Origin: Halorussus halophilus
Lineage (GTDB): Archaea; Halobacteriota; Halobacteria; Halobacteriales; Haladaptataceae
Assembly (NCBI RefSeq): GCF_008831545.1
Contig: NZ_CP044523.1
Location: 3,100,001-3,164,000, forward strand
Length of the DNA stretch: 64,000 nucleotides
Reading direction: 5' to 3'
In this document: one piece after another, positions 8,052-24,335 of the stretch
Layout of the letters: every line of letters starts with the position of its first letter
How positions within the stretch are numbered: the stretch's first letter is position 1
Program-made: the position numbers and the translations under genes
Notes under the pieces: model-generated
Told to the model about the DNA's origin: nothing
Database searches by the model: none
The model's input: the letters and a program-made list of their open reading frames with translations, nothing else

Positions 8052-8959
8052 CGCTTCGCCTCCGTGTACTCGGAGAACACGTCGCTCAGCGATATTTCCC
8101 GGACTGCGAAGTCTTGGAAGACGCCAGCGTCCGCGACGGTCGTCAGCGCGTCAAGTTTCGTCTGCCCGTCGCCCTCACAGGAGACGGCGATTTTCGACAC
8201 GTCCGTCGTCACGTTTCGGACGCCCTCGATATTTTGGAGGCGTTCCACCAAGCCGCTCGGAACGTACCCCACCTCGACTTCGAGCGTCGTGCCCGCGCCG
8301 AGTTGCCGACGGAGTTCGGTGATACTGCCCTCCGCTTCGAGGCGGCCGTCCAGCAAGATGCCCACGCGGTCGGCGACGGCCTGCACGTCTTCCAACACGT
8401 GCGAGGAGAAGAAGACGGTCGTGCCGTCTGCGGCCTCCTCGCTGACGATTCGCCGGAGCGTTCGCGCGCCGTTCGGGTCGAGTCCCGTCGATGGTTCGTC
8501 GAGGACGAGTAGGTCGGGGTCGCCGACGAGCGCGACGGCGATTGCCATCCGCTGGGCCATCCCCTTCGAGTACTCTTCGGCGCGGCGGTCCGCGTCCGCC
8601 GAGAGGTTTACGCGGGCGAGCAGTTCGTCGGGGTCGTCGCTCGCGTCTTTCGTCTCGATAGCGTGCTGGACGTGTTCGCGCCCGGTGAGTCGCGGGTAGA
8701 CGCCGTAGCCTTCCAGCAACGCACCGGTTCGGCGGCGTATCTCGCGGGACTCTTTCTGGGCGTCGCGTCCGAAGACGAGCGCCGACCCAGCGGAGGACTG
8801 CATGAAGTCGAGCATGATGTTGATGGTCGTGGATTTCCCCGCACCGTTGGGGCCGAGGAATCCGAACACCTCGCCTTCCTCGACGGTGAGGTCCACGCCG
8901 CGGAGCGCGACGAAGTCGCCAAACTGCTTCTGGAGGGACCGGAGTTCGATGGCGGCCAT
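8048..8959 (-). CDS. ABC transporter ATP-binding protein
   Basis: The nucleotide-binding subunit partner of the ABC-2 permease directly downstream. Visible motifs are Walker A GPNGAGKS, signature YSKGMAQRM, Walker B LLVLDEPSTGLDP and the H-loop SSHVL. The last 80 residues are a regulatory extension common in the CcmA/DrrA group. I start at ATG 8959 (MAAIELRSLQKQ), which fits family length (303 residues); the frame stays open 19 codons further upstream, but that stretch has no family match. The two genes overlap by four bases. Confidence 0.93.
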   Translation of the reverse strand: MAAIELRSLQKQFGDFVALRGVDLTVEEGEVFGFLGPNGAGKSTTINIMLDFMQSSAGSALVFGRDAQKESREIRRRTGALLEGYGVYPRLTGREHVQHAIETKDASDDPDELLARVNLSADADRRAEEYSKGMAQRMAIAVALVGDPDLLVLDEPSTGLDPNGARTLRRIVSEEAADGTTVFFSSHVLEDVQAVADRVGILLDGRLEAEGSITELRRQLGAGTTLEVEVGYVPSGLVERLQNIEGVRNVTTDVSKIAVSCEGDGQTKLDALTTVADAGVFQDFAVREISLSDVFSEYTEAKR

Positions 8960-9042
8960 ACGCGGTTCATCCAAGTCGAGCGACAAGTATTTTCTCACCG
9001 GCGAGCGGTCGTTCACTCTAAACGGAGTCGTAGCGTCGGTAG

Positions 9043-10035
9043 TCAGAAGACGAACCGAGCGACCAGTAGCGACACCACGCTGGCGAGGACGAGCGAGAGC
9101 AACAGCACGCCGACCGGTCGAAGCCCCGTCCGACGGAAGTCAGAGAGTTCGGTGTTCATGCCGAGACCGGCGAACGCCAGCAGAAACAGCCAGTGGTACG
9201 CGACTGACACTCGTTCGACGTCGGTGGGCGAGAGCAGACCGACGTTCGCGGCGACCAGCAGCGCGACGAACCCGAGGACGAACTTGGGGAACCGACGCCA
9301 CATGCGCCGGAGGTGGGAGAGACCCACCGACGAGTCGCCGCCGGTGTCGGTGTAGCGAATGGAGTACGCGACGACGACGACGCCGAGCAACACGTTTCGG
9401 GTCAGTTTGGTGAGCGTCGCCCACTGGCCGGCCACGTCGGAGTACGCGAATCCCGCGGCCGTGACGGGGCCGGTGCTGAACATGCTGAGCCCTGCCCAGA
9501 TGCCGAACAGTTGGTCGGAGAGGTGCAAAGAGCGGCCGACTACCGGGAACGCGAACAGTGTGACGGCGTCGAACAGGAGGACGGTGCTGGTCGCGTACGC
9601 GATGCTCTCCTCGTCGGCGTCGATACTGCCAGCGACGGCGACGACTGCCGAGACACCACAGATGCTCGCCCCTGCCGCCAACAGCGACCCGAGTCGGTCG
9701 GAGAGGCCGAACACGCGCCGAGAGAGTACCTCGACGACTGCGACGGTGAACGCGACGATGCCGACGACGGTGACTATGAGGGGAACGCCCGCCGCCAGGA
9801 CGGCGTCCAGCGAGACGCGAACGCCCATCAGGACGATGCCAGTTTCGAGCCAGAGTTTGTACGTCTCGACGCCGGACTCGAATCGGGACGGGACCCCGTA
9901 GCCGTTAGCCAGCAGGAGTCCACAGAAGACGGCGACCAGCAACGCGTTCGCGCCGACGAAGTGGGCGACCGCTTCGCTAACCGCGCCGATAGCGACTAAC
10001 AGGCCGATTCCGGGGAGGAGCGTTCGGAGAGACAT
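9043..10035 (-). CDS. YeiH/UPF0324 family putative sulfate exporter
   Basis: A 330-residue membrane protein with about ten hydrophobic segments. It carries the YeiH-family pattern: LLLANGYGVPSRFESGVE near the N-terminus, ETGIVLMGVRVSLD, GASICGVSAV and a C-terminal FAGLGMNTEL. Bacterial members are proposed to export sulfate or related anions, partly by context (often near LysR/CysB). I start at ATG 10035 (MSLRTLLPGIG). The frame continues 84 codons upstream, but that part is Ser/Gly-rich, unlike the family, and overlaps a better small ORF in another frame. The small ORF ends four bases before this start, so the two are probably cotranscribed. Confidence 0.88.
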   Translation of the reverse strand: MSLRTLLPGIGLLVAIGAVSEAVAHFVGANALLVAVFCGLLLANGYGVPSRFESGVETYKLWLETGIVLMGVRVSLDAVLAAGVPLIVTVVGIVAFTVAVVEVLSRRVFGLSDRLGSLLAAGASICGVSAVVAVAGSIDADEESIAYATSTVLLFDAVTLFAFPVVGRSLHLSDQLFGIWAGLSMFSTGPVTAAGFAYSDVAGQWATLTKLTRNVLLGVVVVAYSIRYTDTGGDSSVGLSHLRRMWRRFPKFVLGFVALLVAANVGLLSPTDVERVSVAYHWLFLLAFAGLGMNTELSDFRRTGLRPVGVLLLSLVLASVVSLLVARFVF

Positions 10036-15682: not shown

Positions 15683-15750
15683 CCATTTTCCAGCGGCGGC
15701 GTTCGTTCGCGCCGCTACGCGACGCTCACGAGTTTGCCGCTGGAAAATGG
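15683..15750. repeat. 15-bp inverted repeat abutting tRNA-Pro
   Basis: The arms 15683-15697 (ccattttccagcggc) and 15736-15750 are perfect inverted copies separated by 38 bases. The right arm overlaps the last bases of the tRNA-Pro gene. The spacer itself contains a GC-rich fold (agcggcg with cgccgct). Confidence 0.7.
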
Positions 15751-15820
15751 GATCGCCCGGATTTGAACCAGGGTTATCGGCACCCAAGGCCGAAAGGATA
15801 CCAAGCTACCCCACGATCCC
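15748..15820 (-). tRNA. tRNA-Pro (anticodon TGG)
   Basis: On the minus strand the 73 bases fold into a full cloverleaf. The acceptor is GGGATCG paired with CGATCCC plus discriminator A. The D-arm region is GGGTAGCTTGGTATCC. The anticodon stem TCGGC/GCCGA encloses the loop CTTGGGT (anticodon TGG). The T-arm is CCTGG-TTCAAAT-CCGGG. No intron is present and CCA is not encoded. Confidence 0.95.
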
Positions 15821-15886: not shown

Positions 15887-17698
15887 TCACACGCCCCAAA
15901 TCGCCGCGATGCCGACCGTCGTCACGACGGCGAAGACCAACTGCAGGGGCGTGCCGACCTTCACGTAGTCGGTGAACTTGTACCCGCCGGGACCATAGAC
16001 GAAGAGGTTCGTCTGGTAACCCACAGGCGTCATGAATGCCGTCGAGGCGGCGAACGTTACCGCCAGCACGAACGCGAAGGCGTTGGCATCGAGTTGTCTG
16101 GCCGCTTCGGCGGCGACCGGAATCATCAGCACGACGCTGGCGTTGTTGCTGACGATGTTCGTCAGAATCGCCGTCACGAGATAGAAGACCCCAAGAACGG
16201 CGACTGCGGGGAGGAAGTCTGCACTCGCGACTACGAGGTCCGCCAGCAGGTTCGCCGCGCCGGTCTGCTCCATGGCGATGCCGAGCGGAATGACGCCCGC
16301 GAGCAGGAAGATAACGTCCCACTCGACAGCGTCGTACACTTCCGGCGGTTTCAGCACGCCAGTGACGACCATGACCAGTGCGCCCGCGAGCGCGGAGACC
16401 ATGATAGGAAGAATGTTTAGTGCCGCAACCGCGACGACGGCGGCGACGATACCGATTGCGAGCGCGATTTTGCCCTCGCGGTAGTCGGGGCGCTCGATTT
16501 CTTGGGCGACGATAAAGTCGCGATTGACGTTCAGCCGAGAGATGCTCTCGGGCGTCGCCTGCACCAGCAAGGTGTCGCCGACTTGCAACTCGGTGTGGTC
16601 CATCCGTTTCCGGATGAGTTCGGGACCGCGACGGAGCGCGAGGACGGTGGCGTCGTAGCGGTCCCGGAAGTTCGCGGTTGCGAGCGTCTCGCCGACGAGC
16701 GAGGAGCGCGGCGAGATGACGACTTCGACGAGGCTTCGCTCGGTATCGTTGCCTTCTAACTCCTCGTCGCTCACGTCGAACTCCGAAATAAGCGAGAGAC
16801 CCTCGGCGTCGAGGAGTTCGACCAGCGTATCCCGGTCGGTTCGAACTGCGAAGATGTCGTCGGGGCGAATCTGTTTCGGGCGGAGCGGTTCGACGAACGT
16901 TTGGCCGTCGCGGATGAGTTGAACGAGGTCTACGTCGAGGTCGGTCTCCGTGAGTGCCTCGCCGACGGTCTGGCCGACGAGCGGGGAGTCTTCGCGGACG
17001 ACGACTTCCGTCAGGTAGTTCCCCATCTCGAACTCTTCGGTGAGGTCTTCTTTCGGCGGGATTCGTTCGGGGAGAAGCCACCGCCCGACGGTCATCAAAT
17101 AAACCGTGCCGATGACGGTGACGACGAGACCGAGACCGGTGAACTCGAACATCGAGAACGCGTGTAGTTCCGGGAAGACCTGCGGTTGGTCGGCGGCGAG
17201 TCGGGCCACGAGGTCGCTCGCGAGGATGTTGGTCGAGGTGCCGACGAGTGTCAACATGCCGCCGAACATCGACGCGTAGGACAGCGGAATGAGCAGTTTC
17301 GACGGCGATGTCTTGCCCTCGTGGGCGAGGTCGGTCACCATCGGCAACAGAATCGCCACCGCGGCGGTGTTGTTGATGAACCCCGAAATCGGCCCGACGA
17401 CGCCGATAGTCGCGCCGAGTTGCTTCGTCTCGTCGTCGCGGGTGAACGCCGCAATCTTCTGGCCGAGAATCTGGACCGCACCGGTTCGCTGGACGCCGTA
17501 GCTCAGGACGAACATCGCCAGTACCGTCACAGTCGCAGTGCTGGCGAATCCCGAAACGCCCTGTGCTGGCGTCACCTGCGTCCACGGTTCGAGCACCATC
17601 AGCGACACCATGATGCCGATAGCCGTGATGTCGATAGGAACCGGTTCCGTCGCAAACAGGACGAGCGCGACGAGGATAATGGCGAACACTACGAGCAT
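15887..17698 (-). CDS. SLC13/DASS-type anion transporter with two TrkA-C domains
   Basis: A membrane transporter of 603 residues. N- and C-terminal blocks of hydrophobic segments carry the DASS signatures FINNTAAVAILLP and LVGTSTNILA in the first half, and SNNASVVLMIPVA and VGYQTNLFVYGPGGY in the second. Two soluble RCK_C/TrkA-C regulatory domains lie between them, at about residues 222-297 and 321-388. Family members move Na+ or H+ with sulfate, phosphate, dicarboxylates or silicate-like anions. I take ATG 17698. The frame runs further upstream into the HalOD1 gene, so the longer version is unlikely; GTG 17737 is an alternative. Confidence 0.9.
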   Translation of the reverse strand: MLVVFAIILVALVLFATEPVPIDITAIGIMVSLMVLEPWTQVTPAQGVSGFASTATVTVLAMFVLSYGVQRTGAVQILGQKIAAFTRDDETKQLGATIGVVGPISGFINNTAAVAILLPMVTDLAHEGKTSPSKLLIPLSYASMFGGMLTLVGTSTNILASDLVARLAADQPQVFPELHAFSMFEFTGLGLVVTVIGTVYLMTVGRWLLPERIPPKEDLTEEFEMGNYLTEVVVREDSPLVGQTVGEALTETDLDVDLVQLIRDGQTFVEPLRPKQIRPDDIFAVRTDRDTLVELLDAEGLSLISEFDVSDEELEGNDTERSLVEVVISPRSSLVGETLATANFRDRYDATVLALRRGPELIRKRMDHTELQVGDTLLVQATPESISRLNVNRDFIVAQEIERPDYREGKIALAIGIVAAVVAVAALNILPIMVSALAGALVMVVTGVLKPPEVYDAVEWDVIFLLAGVIPLGIAMEQTGAANLLADLVVASADFLPAVAVLGVFYLVTAILTNIVSNNASVVLMIPVAAEAARQLDANAFAFVLAVTFAASTAFMTPVGYQTNLFVYGPGGYKFTDYVKVGTPLQLVFAVVTTVGIAAIWGV

Positions 17699-17820
17699 AC
17701 CCGTCGTCAACTCGGCGAGTACCACGAGCGTTACAACTCGGCGAACAGTCAAAAAGTGTGTGGGAACGAGGGACGGAGAAAGCGCGAGCGACAACGAGTC
17801 GAGAATCGAATGAGTAACTA

Positions 17821-18108
17821 CTATTCGAAGACAGTGACGAAACCGTCGCCGTCCACGATGACGGTGTACCCACCAGCAGTGAACTCGAACCGCCATCGCT
17901 CGCCGGACGGCCGGTGTTCGAACAGCGTCTCGACTGCCTCTAAATCTACAGATTCGTACAGACCGAGGTCTTCGCACATCGGGTCGATTTCTTCGACCGC
18001 CGCGATTGCGTCGATTATCGTTACACCGAGTGACGTGTCGTCGTCGTGTCGCGTCTCGTACAACGGTGCTGAAACACCGTATCCCACTTCAGTTTCTGCC
18101 GTACCCAT
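17821..18108 (-). CDS. Stand-alone HalOD1 output-domain protein
   Basis: A 95-residue acidic protein made of one HalOD1 domain: helix (IIDAIAAVEEIDP), LGLYESVDLEAVETLF, then strands ending in GYTVIVDGDGFVTVFE. HalOD1 occurs in haloarchaea either fused to response regulators or alone, and is thought to be an output or interaction module; the biochemical role is not known. A similar protein is at 50500-50826. Same strand as the SLC13 gene, 122 bases upstream, so cotranscription is possible. Confidence 0.85.
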   Translation of the reverse strand: MGTAETEVGYGVSAPLYETRHDDDTSLGVTIIDAIAAVEEIDPMCEDLGLYESVDLEAVETLFEHRPSGERWRFEFTAGGYTVIVDGDGFVTVFE

Positions 18109-18417: not shown

Positions 18418-20475
18418 TCACTCTTCGTCGCCGTACAGTTCGAGGTCGGCGACGATTTCGAACGGCGTCTTCTCCTTGCGGACGCCGTCCAGAATCCGGA
18501 ACGCCTCGTCCGGCGCGAGGAAGTGGGTGGTGACGACGCGGCCTAAGTCGGTCGGCGAAAGTCCCTCGATGAAGTCGTACTCAAGCAGTTTGCCGACTGC
18601 GTGTTTCGTCGGCACGTCGCCTATCATCCGGCCGTTGAGTCGCTTGGCTTGGGACCCACCAACAGTGAGGTTCGCCAAGGTTTCCTCGATAGCCGCACTC
18701 TCGTCGTAGAGGGTCTCGACGTTCTCCATCTCGCCTTTGAGGAGTTTGAACGCGACTTCGTCCTCGGTCATCTCCATGCTGTTGTGGTACGAGCAGTCGG
18801 GTTCGACGAGGACGTACACCTTCCCGCGGTCGTGGTAGTCCGGGCGTCCCGCGCGGCCGAGCATCTGGTGGAACTCCTGGACGGAGAGCCATTCTATACC
18901 CATCGCTAGCGTGTCGAAGACGACCTGCGAGGCCGGGAAGTCCACACCTGCGGCGAGCGCGGCAGTCGTCACGACTGCCGCCAAATCTTGGTCGGCGAAC
19001 ATGCGCTCGACCTTCTTCCGGCGGCCGTAGTCCAGTCCGGCGTGGTACGGCGCGGAACTGTACTCCAGTCTCCGGGAAATCTCGTGACAGCGCCGCCGCG
19101 AGTTCGTGAAGATGATGGTCTGGCCGCGGTAGTCCTTGGAAGATTTCCGGTCGTACTCGCGCCTGACCAGTTTGTTCTCGATTTCGGGCTTCTCTTGGCC
19201 GTCGGCGAAGGTGACGTGGCGTTCGAGCGGGACCGGGCGCTCTTCGAACTCCACGAGATTGGCTTCGAGTGACTTGGCGAGCGAACCGGGGTTCCCGACC
19301 GTCGCGGAGAGGTAGACCCATTGGGCACCGCCGTAGTCGTTCTGCTTCTTCGCTCGGGTCTCGCAGTAGTGTTTCAGGCGCGCGATGAGGCCGTCCAGAC
19401 GGTGACCGCGCTCCTGCTCTTTGAGCGTGTGCACCTCGTCGATGACGACGGTGCCGATGTCGCCCAAGTTTCTCCCTGTCCGAAGGGCGTGGTCGATGCC
19501 TTCGTAGGTCCCCACTATCACGTCCGCGCTCGGGTCGAAGGCGTGGCCGTCGTCGCGGACCCTGCTCGCGCCGACGCGAATCGTCACGTCCACGAGGTCG
19601 CCGTACTCGTCTTCGAAGTCCTCGTGCTTCTGGTTGGCAAGCGCGACGAGCGGCACCAAAAAGAGCATCTTGCCCTGTCCGTTCAGCACGCGGTCGATGC
19701 CGGTCATCTCGCCGACCAGCGTCTTGCCTGTCGCCGTCGCGCTCACGACCAACTGGTCGTCGCCGTCGAGCAGGCCGTTCTCCACCGCGAGGCTTTGCAC
19801 TGGAAGGAGTTCCTCGAACCGGCTTTCCAACAGGTTCTGGATACCGGGGTGGAGGTCTAAGTCGGGGACCGGAACGGGGTCCACGTCCTCGACGTTCGCG
19901 CTGATTTCGTCGAACTTCGTCAGGTCCGGGTCGAGTTGCCCTTTCAGCAGGTTCGTGATGCGTTCGAGGTCTTGGACCTCCAGCAAGAGGTCTTCGAGGC
20001 GGTCCTTGGCGGCCCGCGTCAAGTCGCCTTGGAAGGCGAGTTCTCGTTCCAGTTCCTCTTTCGCGCAGTCGGGGCAGATGTACTCCTTACCCGCGTCGAT
20101 TGCGGTGTCGGACGTAATCGGCGAGTAGTAGCCGTCGGAGGCGCAGAACCGACAAGTCCGGACTGCCTTCGCGTCCAGTTGGTAGCCGTCGAGCATCTCT
20201 TGGAACTCCTCGCGTGCTTGCTCGGAAGTCTGCTGTGAGATGCGGATGCGCTCGGCTCTGCGAGCGATTTCGATAAACTGGTCGGGACTCCGTGGCTCCT
20301 CGCTCGTTCCTTCGAGGACGCGGAACTTCGCCGGACGCGGCCCGGCGTTCGTCTCCTTGAGCTCTAGCTTCGCTTGCAACACGCGCTCCCGGTCTCGGTT
20401 CACGACTGCGACGTAGTCGCCGCTGACCGACTCGTGGAGGAACAGCGTATCGACCTGCGGGACCTGCTTTGACAC
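18418..20475 (-). CDS. DEAD/DEAH-box helicase, DUF5814 (Hel308-like) family
   Basis: A superfamily 2 ATPase of 685 residues. A haloarchaeal N-terminal region (DUF5814-type) holds a four-Cys zinc site, C108/C111 and C134/C137. The helicase core follows: Walker A ATATGKT (246-252), DEVH (346-349), SAT (YLSAT), TIIFTNSRRR (motif IV) and QMLGRAGRPD (motif VI). The core resembles Ski2/Hel308 helicases. Substrate and polarity are unknown; a DNA-repair or RNA-processing role is inferred from the family only. GTG start at 20475 (MSKQVPQVDTLFLHE). It is alone on its strand with 574 bases of non-coding DNA upstream. Confidence 0.9.
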   Translation of the reverse strand: MSKQVPQVDTLFLHESVSGDYVAVVNRDRERVLQAKLELKETNAGPRPAKFRVLEGTSEEPRSPDQFIEIARRAERIRISQQTSEQAREEFQEMLDGYQLDAKAVRTCRFCASDGYYSPITSDTAIDAGKEYICPDCAKEELERELAFQGDLTRAAKDRLEDLLLEVQDLERITNLLKGQLDPDLTKFDEISANVEDVDPVPVPDLDLHPGIQNLLESRFEELLPVQSLAVENGLLDGDDQLVVSATATGKTLVGEMTGIDRVLNGQGKMLFLVPLVALANQKHEDFEDEYGDLVDVTIRVGASRVRDDGHAFDPSADVIVGTYEGIDHALRTGRNLGDIGTVVIDEVHTLKEQERGHRLDGLIARLKHYCETRAKKQNDYGGAQWVYLSATVGNPGSLAKSLEANLVEFEERPVPLERHVTFADGQEKPEIENKLVRREYDRKSSKDYRGQTIIFTNSRRRCHEISRRLEYSSAPYHAGLDYGRRKKVERMFADQDLAAVVTTAALAAGVDFPASQVVFDTLAMGIEWLSVQEFHQMLGRAGRPDYHDRGKVYVLVEPDCSYHNSMEMTEDEVAFKLLKGEMENVETLYDESAAIEETLANLTVGGSQAKRLNGRMIGDVPTKHAVGKLLEYDFIEGLSPTDLGRVVTTHFLAPDEAFRILDGVRKEKTPFEIVADLELYGDEE

Positions 20476-21229: not shown

Positions 21230-21604
21230 CTACTCCAGCAGTTCTATCTCGTCGTTACCGTTGGGAACCGCACAGAGGAAGGCACCAGCGTCGTCTCCCT
21301 CGTTGCGGTACCAGTGGACGACACCCGCCGGAATGAGTAGCGAGTCGCCCGCGCTGACGGTGTACTCCTCTCCATCAATTCCCACGACGTACTCGCCTTC
21401 GAGGACGTACTGTTCGTGTTCGACTTCGTTGGTGTGCTTCGGTACTTCCGCACCTGCGTCCAGTTCGAACCGCCGAATTGCGAAGTGGGGCGCGCCCTGC
21501 TCCTCGGAGATGAGGACGCCCTTCGACATGCCCTCCGCGGCACCGACCGACTCGTACTCGATGTCGTCTGCGCGTCGCACCAGTGGCTTGGGTGTCTGGC
21601 TCAT
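21230..21604 (-). CDS. Cupin-domain protein
   Basis: A 124-residue single cupin. The first motif, with metal-ligand histidines, is KHTNEVEHEQYVLEGE; the second is AGDSLLIPAGVVHWYRN. Such small cupins bind Mn/Fe/Zn or a sugar or amino-acid ligand and may be isomerases, dioxygenases or sensors. I start at ATG 21604 (MSQTPKPLVRRADD), the normal length; the frame extends into the TnpB gene upstream without family match. The stop is six bases from the convergent 57-residue gene. Confidence 0.87.
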   Translation of the reverse strand: MSQTPKPLVRRADDIEYESVGAAEGMSKGVLISEEQGAPHFAIRRFELDAGAEVPKHTNEVEHEQYVLEGEYVVGIDGEEYTVSAGDSLLIPAGVVHWYRNEGDDAGAFLCAVPNGNDEIELLE

Positions 21605-21635
21605 ACACCTCGCTACGAACGGCGGGTACAAAAAG

Positions 21636-22847
21636 TCAATCAGACCGCGGTGCGTCCGTGAGTTCCGCGTACGGCGTGAATCCGTCGTTGGGACTGATGA
21701 GACCCGAGCGAAGCGCGCAGGCCGACGCACCGAGACCACGGGAGGAGAGCGGGCCACGGCGCACACACCGGAACGCGATGTTCTTCGCGGCGTTGTAGTC
21801 GTCGTTGGCCGAGGCTTCGCACTTCAGGCACTCGAACTGCCCCTCGTCCAGATTTCGGTTTTCCGGGTGGGTAAAGCCACACTCCATGCAGCGTTGGCTC
21901 GTGTACTCCGGATTGACTTGCACGACCGAGATGTCGCGCGCTGCGGCGCGGTACTCTACCAGCGAGAGCAGTTGGGAGAACAGCCACTCGTGGAACGGGT
22001 CTGCTTCGGGCAGGATGTCTACGACCTCACTCAGTTCGCCGAACGCGACGAGTTGGCAGTCGTACTGCTCGGCTTCGTCCACGATGCCGTTCGCCACCTC
22101 GTGGAGTCGTCCGCGGACGAACTGGTCCACGCTGTAGCCTGCTTGCTTCAGCGTGCGCGAGGCGCTCCGCGTTCCGGTCGCCGAAAGCGACGCCCGGACT
22201 TGCTCGAACTGCTCGCGGCGGTGGTTCAGTTCGCCCGCCGAAAAGAATCGGGCGGTACTCGTCACCGCGAGGTTCTCGACGCCCAAATCGACGCCCAAGA
22301 CGGTCGCGCCCTCTGTCGGTGGTTCGACTTCCGGGCGCGGCGTGCGGAATCCCAAATGCAGGACGAACTCGCCGTCGCGATAGTGGAGGGTGCTCTTGGC
22401 GGGTTCCCACTGCTCGTCGTCTAGAAACTGCGCTTGATAGCCACCGTCGGCTGAAAGCGAGAGGTCACAACGCACGCGTTCGTCGGTCGTCGTCAGACTG
22501 ACCGTCCGGTCGTCGAAAACGGTCATCGTCCGGGTGTCGAACGTGACCGACGGGCTCGTAAACTCCGGTTTCGAGCCGTCTCGGTCCTGTGCACGCTTGA
22601 TAGCCTCCGCGGCTCGATGAGTCGCCAACACGACGTGCTGGCTCCCGAGCGTCGTCTCCTCGCGGAGCGTGTCGTAGGCGAGTTGCTGTACTTCGCTCCG
22701 GGTGTGACAGACACCCCACGCCTCGTTGACCGCGAGTTGACAGCCGCGTTTCCACTCTTCGATAAGTCCGCGAAGCCGCTCCGCTTCTGCGGGTCCGACA
22801 GAGAGACCGGTAACCGCCGTCCGTCTGAAATACTCGGTGTCCGCCAC
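21636..22847 (-). CDS. tnpB: TnpB-family RNA-guided nuclease-like protein, altered RuvC-II
   Basis: A 403-residue OrfB/TnpB protein of the haloarchaeal IS200/IS605 type. RuvC-I is GVDLGVENLAV (Asp187). The zinc finger is C320/C323...C340/C343 (CMECGF, CLKC). RuvC-III is NDDYNAAKNI (Asp350). At the RuvC-II site related proteins read AFEDL; here it is VAFGELSEV, so Gly270 replaces the catalytic Glu and Glu271 replaces the next Asp. The frame is intact and full-length. No TnpA gene and no obvious element ends were found. It may be a nuclease-weak or nuclease-dead domesticated copy, or Glu271 may substitute for the lost residue. Confidence 0.9.
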   Translation of the reverse strand: MADTEYFRRTAVTGLSVGPAEAERLRGLIEEWKRGCQLAVNEAWGVCHTRSEVQQLAYDTLREETTLGSQHVVLATHRAAEAIKRAQDRDGSKPEFTSPSVTFDTRTMTVFDDRTVSLTTTDERVRCDLSLSADGGYQAQFLDDEQWEPAKSTLHYRDGEFVLHLGFRTPRPEVEPPTEGATVLGVDLGVENLAVTSTARFFSAGELNHRREQFEQVRASLSATGTRSASRTLKQAGYSVDQFVRGRLHEVANGIVDEAEQYDCQLVAFGELSEVVDILPEADPFHEWLFSQLLSLVEYRAAARDISVVQVNPEYTSQRCMECGFTHPENRNLDEGQFECLKCEASANDDYNAAKNIAFRCVRRGPLSSRGLGASACALRSGLISPNDGFTPYAELTDAPRSD

Positions 22848-23165
22848 GGTATACGTCCATGTCTCAGGTGGGGTCTTGAATACTTTGGGTTAGAAGGTGG
22901 TACGTCAGACTGTCTCTCGCCGGACGACGAGAGTCGAGAGAGAATCGAACGACTCGAAAACCGCTATCCTGAAAGCCACTGCGTTCTAGAGGTGCGAGAT
23001 ATCGACCACCCAGCCTCCAAGCTCTTCTGACACGTGCTGGGTGCGGTAGGACGCTTCGAGACAGTTCGAGGCAGTTCGGCGTTCGAGAGAGCCACCCAAA
23101 TCGTCACACCGCGACCCCCCAAATCACCACGCACCCTTAAGATACTTCCAACAGTAGAGGGGAGT
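22848..23165. other. Intergenic region with possible element end and gene remnant
   Basis: Between TnpB and the protease gene (318 bases). The plus-strand frame ending at 23030 reads like coding sequence for about 50 codons (acidic, with ESRERIERLEN) but has no usable start, so it may be the 3' remnant of a gene. The last 50 bases before 23166 contain a TATA-like ccttaagatac, about 30 bases ahead of the protease ATG. Confidence 0.4.
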
Positions 23166-24335
23166 ATGAGGAGCTTCACGGTCGGTCGAGCGTTCGGTAT
23201 TCCCATCAAACTCGACCTGACGTTCCTGCTGATACTCCCTATCTTCGCGTGGATTATCGGCTCACAGGTCGGCCAGTGGGTCGATATCCTCAACCTACTC
23301 TGGGGAATCGACCTCCAAAACGGGACACTCACGGCAGGACCGATGCCGTGGATACTGGGCGCAGTCTCGGCCATCGGACTGTTCGCTGGCGTCGTGTTGC
23401 ACGAACTCGGCCACTCGCTGGTGGCGATGCGCTACGGCTTCCCCATCAACTCCATCACGCTGTGGATTTTCGGCGGCATCGCTCAACTCACCGACCAACC
23501 AGAAGACTGGCGACAGGAACTCGCCATCGCCATCGCCGGACCGGCTGTCAGCATCGCGCTGGGCGTCGTCTCGTACGTGTTCGCGCTGTTCCTGATTCCC
23601 AACGGATTTCCGACGGCGAGGTTCATCTTCGGCTATCTCGCGCTGATGAACCTCGTCCTCGCGGCGTTCAACCTCCTGCCGGGCTTCCCGATGGACGGCG
23701 GACGAGTCCTTCGAGCACTGCTGGCGCGCAATCGGTCGTTCGCCGACGCGACCCGAACCGCCGCCGAAGTCGGGAAGATGTTCGCCGTCCTGCTCGGCCT
23801 GTTCGGCCTGTTGCAGTTCAACATCATCCTCATCGGTATCGCGTTCTTCATCTACATCGGCGCGACGAGCGAGGCCCAACAGACGGTGATGTCCACGGCG
23901 TTTCGCGACGTGCGCGTGCGCGACGTGATGACCTCGACTACCGACCTCGACGTCGTCTCGCCGGACACGTCGATCGCGGACCTCTTCGAGACGATGTTCC
24001 GCCAGCGACACACTGGCTATCCGGTCTTAGACGACGGCCGACTCGTCGGCATGATAACGCTGGAGGACGCCCGCGAGGTGCCACAGGTCGAGCGCGACGC
24101 CTACCGAGTCGAAGACGTGATGACCACCGACCTGAAGACGATTCCAGCGGCCGGCGACGCCATCTCGGCCTTCGAGAAGCTCCAACAGCACGGCATCGGT
24201 CGGCTGCTCGTCATCGACGCTGACGGCGAACTCGCGGGCATCATCTCGCGGACAGACCTGCTGACTGCCTTCGACATTATCCAGAAGAGTGGCCGCATGG
24301 AAGAGGTTACGCCGGTCGAGAAGCCTTCGCAGTAA
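23166..24335 (+). CDS. Site-2 protease family (M50) metalloprotease with CBS pair
   Basis: An intramembrane zinc protease of 389 residues. HELGH (VVLHELGHSLVA) in the third hydrophobic region and NLLPGFPMDGGRVLRA provide the zinc ligands. About six membrane segments are followed by two CBS domains in the C-terminal 130 residues (VRDVMTSTTDLDVV and VEDVMTTDLKTI), which usually bind adenine nucleotides. Such enzymes cut membrane-anchored regulators or signal-peptide remnants. ATG 23166 is chosen over the longer frame because MRSFTVGRAFGIPIKLD is the conserved start. It follows a TATA-like box at about 30 bases, giving an almost leaderless mRNA. Confidence 0.92.
   Translation: MRSFTVGRAFGIPIKLDLTFLLILPIFAWIIGSQVGQWVDILNLLWGIDLQNGTLTAGPMPWILGAVSAIGLFAGVVLHELGHSLVAMRYGFPINSITLWIFGGIAQLTDQPEDWRQELAIAIAGPAVSIALGVVSYVFALFLIPNGFPTARFIFGYLALMNLVLAAFNLLPGFPMDGGRVLRALLARNRSFADATRTAAEVGKMFAVLLGLFGLLQFNIILIGIAFFIYIGATSEAQQTVMSTAFRDVRVRDVMTSTTDLDVVSPDTSIADLFETMFRQRHTGYPVLDDGRLVGMITLEDAREVPQVERDAYRVEDVMTTDLKTIPAAGDAISAFEKLQQHGIGRLLVIDADGELAGIISRTDLLTAFDIIQKSGRMEEVTPVEKPSQ

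Follow-up and report, generated by a model that had tools for sequence, protein, structure and literature searches.

A nuclease-dead TnpB kept across a haloarchaeal family, possibly without its transposon guide

Cas12k is a naturally nuclease-deficient type V effector whose RuvC domain performs no double-strand cleavage and which binds instead. To our knowledge, the known domesticated TnpBs (TldR and Cas12) all retain RNA guidance, and we know of no guide-free mode of use in the TnpB superfamily. In TldRs, as described in the part of PMC13418256 that cites Wiegand 2024, the TnpB nuclease domain is inactivated, whereas binding of guide RNA and of DNA seems to be retained. Here we characterize a tnpB gene of the archaeon Halorussus halophilus, which lies in a 64,000-nucleotide stretch of contig NZ_CP044523.1 (assembly GCF_008831545.1, positions 3,100,001–3,164,000; hereafter the window, whose numbering is used throughout) and which an earlier note, made from the sequence alone, had read as either a dead or weakened nuclease of the TldR type or a nuclease in which Glu271 takes over. 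Its family-wide, single-copy and syntenic occurrence, purifying selection and the successive loss of the three catalytic residues strongly support a dead nuclease and domestication; the rest of the TldR proposal, in which the protein would act as a repressor directed by a guide RNA of its own, is unsupported.

Like TldRs as portrayed in those passages of PMC13418256, the dead TnpB is TnpB-derived, has an inactivated RuvC site in an otherwise intact fold and resides outside a transposon in long-term, vertical association with host genes. The TldRs portrayed there keep an adjacent guide RNA, base-pair with target promoters and are phage-linked, whereas the dead TnpB is archaeal, chromosomal and near-universal in its family, with no guide in cis and no donor found in three genomes. 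Covariance searches, synonymous-site constraint and stem counts gave no guide RNA beside the gene at the dead loci, although a diverged or trans-encoded RNA could escape them. We class the protein as an exapted nuclease-dead TnpB variant rather than a TldR, though an unrecognised RNA may yet let it act like one. Haloarchaeal TnpBs of the IS200/IS605 type, which work with an omegaRNA or sotRNA (PMC12558985), share its domains, zinc ribbon and RuvC fold, but the dead TnpB lacks the catalytic Glu, the omegaRNA and the element ends and is inherited vertically as a single copy. Cas12m (PMC10442227) is likewise a naturally nuclease-deficient type V effector that binds without double-strand cleavage; unlike the dead TnpB, for which no guide was found, both it and Cas12k are CRISPR-guided. 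Nuclease-deactivated Cas12f (PDB 9n9c and 9n9m) has a common fold (Z 16.8–17.0) but only 12% identity, and was solved with guide RNA.

Fold, catalytic site and descent

The reading frame is full-length and undamaged, as the earlier note had held, and its translation contains D187, G270-E271, D350 and all four zinc Cys. The GGC-GAA codons that the note had placed at 22036–22041 are real and occupy 22040–22035, one base away. Membership of the TnpB superfamily is indicated by the NCBIfam model guided_TnpB (NF040570; 125 bits, cut-off 100) and by Pfam PF07282 (Cas12f1-like TNB; 69 bits, cut-off 26.3), and an AlphaFold2 model has the full TnpB-type fold (mean predicted local distance difference test score 79, predicted template modelling score 0.57), matching Cas12f with Z up to 23.7 and TnpB with Z up to 18.2. 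The D-E-D RuvC triad of active TnpBs is missing: G270 is present in every orthologue, and D187 and D350 are lost in some. Automatic models still label the dead TnpB an RNA-guided endonuclease, which is misleading.

The family comprises 28 genomes from Halorussus, Halomicrococcus and a third genus, g3, which we take to be Haladaptatus. Protein searches found one orthologue each in 27 of them, H. halophilus counted; the only genome without one is 62% complete, and all 18 good genomes carry the gene. Identity to the orthologues is 80–83% within Halorussus and 63–68% in the other genera. In an order-wide search of 392 genomes, family members scored at least 540 bits and nothing outside the family exceeded 451 bits; the nearest catalytic relatives share 48–57% identity with the dead TnpB. 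The dead orthologues all fall in one clade (Shimodaira–Hasegawa-like approximate likelihood ratio test support 100), none has a stop or frameshift, and the ratio of non-synonymous to synonymous substitution rates (dN/dS) has a median of 0.17 over 180 pairs with dS < 1, indicating purifying selection. In the orthologue at locus L077 (about 8686–9942, genome G017), a short insertion interrupts the linker around residue 90; the protein is otherwise intact.

To follow the catalytic site, we compared 26 aligned dead proteins with 45 related TnpBs that have the catalytic Glu. The residue aligned with Gly270 is Glu in 45/45 of these relatives and Gly in 27/27 family orthologues, which disposes of a sequencing artefact at this codon. 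Residue 271 is D in 28, N in 12, E in 4 and R in 1 of the catalytic relatives, and E in 24, K in 1 and D in 1 of the dead proteins. In these alignments, Glu271 reads as an old acidic position and not as a moved catalytic residue, contrary to the suggestion that it takes over. The nine g3 orthologues have Ala or Ser at position 187, and four of them have His at position 350. Because the dead orthologues form a single clade, the simplest reading is that the Glu was probably lost once and the other catalytic residues stepwise thereafter.

The remainder of the protein has changed unevenly. Three residues that hardly vary among the catalytic relatives, H230, E240 and R276, have drifted freely in the dead clade. 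Identity within this clade is lowest around RuvC-II (0.69–0.70) and highest at residues 312–395, comprising the zinc ribbon, RuvC-III and the tail (0.92–0.94, versus 0.70 in the catalytic set). The RuvC lobe has lost about five basic residues, its net charge going from −2.3 to −11.5; the N-lobe is well conserved and retains its basic residues. We also observed a change from Ala to Asp at residue 349, beside RuvC-III Asp350, that is fixed in the dead orthologues even where residue 350 is His.

Search for a guide RNA

Catalytic relatives show the expected right end and guide at their 3′ end: a hairpin, then GTTGAC, then unrelated sequence. We built a covariance model, R1, from 19 aligned 3′ regions of the nearest such relatives, with a consensus fold containing 13 covarying pairs. 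R1 found the omegaRNA at every catalytic TnpB tested and scores 66–190 bits at catalytic TnpB loci outside the training set, a few of which carry an element that is also represented among the training rows; it detects the omegaRNA at all six full-length TnpB paralogues of the H. halophilus genome and still recognises the omegaRNA of TnpBs at 38–48% identity. At 27/27 dead loci, including the gene's 3′ end where the earlier note had proposed to look, it gave nothing above noise, with the same outcome when filters were turned off on 12 of them. Rfam had no match at the dead locus and is uninformative, having likewise missed the omegaRNAs of the catalytic relatives.

In Halorussus, the tail itself tells the same story. 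In the catalytic relatives, the synonymous sites of codons 362–394 are more constrained than in 121/121 windows (observed/expected 2.30), as expected for a gene with an RNA inside it. The same codons in dead Halorussus have a ratio of 1.17, nearly the lowest, with an amino-acid identity of 0.94. Stem 1 is complete in 37/38 catalytic relatives versus 2/16 dead Halorussus, and hairpin 2 in 33/38 versus 0/16. Folded alone, the dead tails show almost no covariation (one pair in Halorussus, three in g3), and the sequence right after the stop is completely different among Halorussus species.

A guide could also be borrowed. In six of the family genomes that carry the dead protein, R1 gave no match at E ≤ 0.001; three near-complete ones among them (G015, G017 and G019) also have no second TnpB by protein search or above the Pfam TNB cut-off, a second G017 row being an N-terminal piece of the same gene with its internal insertion. 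The best omegaRNA scores in G015 and G019, 12–14 bits, are noise. Since the dead protein is kept in genomes without another TnpB above that cut-off or an R1 match, the borrowing of omegaRNAs is unlikely to be a general need.

The locus and its neighbours

In nearly all 27 genomes, the gene order is M50/CBS protease (divergent), tnpB, cupin and helicase (Table 1); Halomicrococcus lacks the M50 gene, and one Halorussus has no cupin within 9 kb. Twelve genomes belonging to four other families have the M50 and cupin genes side by side without tnpB, so tnpB arrived once and stayed. The gap between tnpB and cupin reaches about 2 kb in other Halorussus species and the cupin gene has its own probable TATA box; a fixed operon is therefore unlikely, and co-transcription of cupin with tnpB would not be required.

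The right end of IS200/IS605 elements (hairpin and GTTGAC), present in the catalytic relatives, is absent around the dead tnpB, and no left end was found there, as judged solely by a shared hairpin. No TnpA gene lies nearby, in agreement with the earlier note: the genome's only two Y1 transposases sit on contig C3. Upstream of catalytic TnpBs, we noted weak matches of the R1 terminal hairpin (L003:1350–1392 and L038:2771–2813; E 0.02–0.03), and the left and right ends of catalytic elements seem to share a hairpin.

At every orthologous locus, AAGTATTCAAG occurs about 30–40 bases 5′ of the start; it is missing from the empty sites. Possible roles are those of a core promoter of unusual type or of a site for autoregulation. 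As a regulon operator it was rejected: it is essentially private to tnpB in each genome, and no regulon was found. The whole leader of about 45 nucleotides before the GTG (22847–22900, −) is near-identical in most Halorussus, and the sequence just upstream diverges.

Table 1. Coordinates of the dead tnpB gene, its key codons and its surroundings in the window
Feature	Position	Strand	Basis or remark
Domesticated nuclease-dead TnpB gene	21636–22847	−	403 amino acids; GTG start 22847–22845, stop 21638–21636; intact open reading frame; AlphaFold fold
Codon 270, GGC, Gly replacing RuvC-II catalytic Glu	22038–22040	−	Alignment of orthologues and relatives
Codon 271, GAA, Glu, not a relocated catalytic residue	22035–22037	−	Alignment
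Codon 187, RuvC-I Asp, retained in H. halophilus; Ala/Ser in 9 g3 orthologues	22287–22289	−	
Codon 350, RuvC-III Asp, retained in H. halophilus; His in 4 g3 orthologues	21798–21800	−	
Codon 349, Asp, fixed across the dead clade; Ala in 44/45 catalytic relatives	21801–21803	−	
Zinc ribbon Cys 320/323/340/343, invariant	21819–21890	−	Alignment
C-terminal tail, codons 362–403	21639–21764	−	omegaRNA start in catalytic relatives; scaffold gone, peptide strongly conserved
Cupin-domain gene, conserved downstream neighbour	21230–21604	−	
Upstream M50 protease with CBS domains, divergently oriented	23166–24335	+	Open reading frame listed from 23034; likely start ATG 23166
DEAD/Hel308-like helicase, conserved next neighbour	18418–20475	−	
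CTTTTTGTAC, probable TATA box of cupin gene, directly after tnpB stop	21626–21635	−	Sequence reading
AAGTATTCAAG, upstream element private to tnpB, roughly where a TATA box would lie	22875–22885	−	27/27 orthologous loci

Elsewhere in the window, its only tRNA gene, a tRNA-Pro (TGG) at 15748–15820 (−), lies near the 3′ end of a CitMHS/TrkA-C transporter open reading frame (15887–17977).

Competing readings and biological meaning

Our preferred explanation, which we hold with evenly balanced confidence, is a domesticated nuclease-dead TnpB that most likely works without a transposon guide as a predicted nucleic-acid-binding protein. Its historical steps are shown or strongly supported by the comparisons above: in the family ancestor, a single TnpB-type element inserted between the M50-protease gene and the divergent cupin gene; its two transposon ends, the RuvC-II Glu and the omegaRNA disappeared, and what is left has persisted as a gene present in one copy and inherited vertically. 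The protein would now bind nucleic acid guide-free, as a regulator or architectural factor, through its retained N-lobe and its very strongly conserved zinc ribbon and C-terminal tail, with the old catalytic lobe serving as a scaffold. The neighbouring genes need not be its target, because either can be lost. Several observations weigh against this explanation. The well-conserved N-lobe would also fit continued RNA binding, and the basic residues lost from the RuvC lobe argue against unchanged nucleic-acid handling there. In g3, codon-level constraint of the tail is above 116/121 windows and hairpin 2 is partly formed, so the tail may keep an RNA role in that genus; some of this signal lies over the probable promoter of the cupin gene. 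R1 would also miss a guide RNA whose gene lies elsewhere or whose sequence has changed too far to be recognised.

A TldR-like RNA-guided repressor, with a guide that is encoded in trans or is too diverged to be recognised, is a possibility that we consider unlikely but the most serious competitor. Its origin would match that of TldRs, with RuvC inactivated and the remaining fold, including the N-lobe, kept, and some codon-level constraint is left in the g3 tail. Against it stand the silence of R1 at every dead locus despite its reach across distant TnpBs, the broken scaffold stems and dissimilar post-stop sequences of Halorussus, and the retention of the protein in genomes without another TnpB or R1 match. 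Those genomes also count against a dominant-negative decoy that would bind the omegaRNAs or targets of active TnpBs. Active-type TnpBs with omegaRNAs do occur in most family genomes, but a role solely as their antagonist is disfavoured since the dead protein persists in three near-complete genomes that have no other TnpB above the Pfam cut-off and no omegaRNA by R1, and basic residues are lost from both the RuvC lobe and the tail; we judge a decoy improbable.

The retention of D187 and D350 in Halorussus and Halomicrococcus, together with D349 across the dead clade, could be read as a sign that the enzyme is weakened yet still cuts, with Glu271 or Asp349 standing in for the RuvC-II Glu. This is very improbable: residue 271 is already D, N or E in nearly all catalytic relatives and is K in one orthologue, nine orthologues without D187, four of them also without D350, are equally conserved, H230, E240 and R276 drift freely, and there is no guide RNA in cis. 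The missing transposon ends and omegaRNA would suit a functionless, decaying remnant, to which we give practically no credence because purifying selection already contradicts it, as do the intact frames in 27 genomes, the single-copy synteny and the invariant zinc Cys.

Our literature search found none on Halorussus TnpB. The guide-free explanation would, if correct, make this a TnpB wholly removed from RNA guidance, whose gene belongs to the core of an archaeal family and encodes a predicted guide-free DNA- or RNA-binding protein; we advance this stronger claim tentatively, at slightly less than even confidence. The dead clade forms a natural series with one, two and three catalytic residues lost, and Halorussus species without another TnpB offer a clean knock-out background. 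As a near-universal single-copy gene in these archaea, the clade appears to keep the protein but drop the guide.
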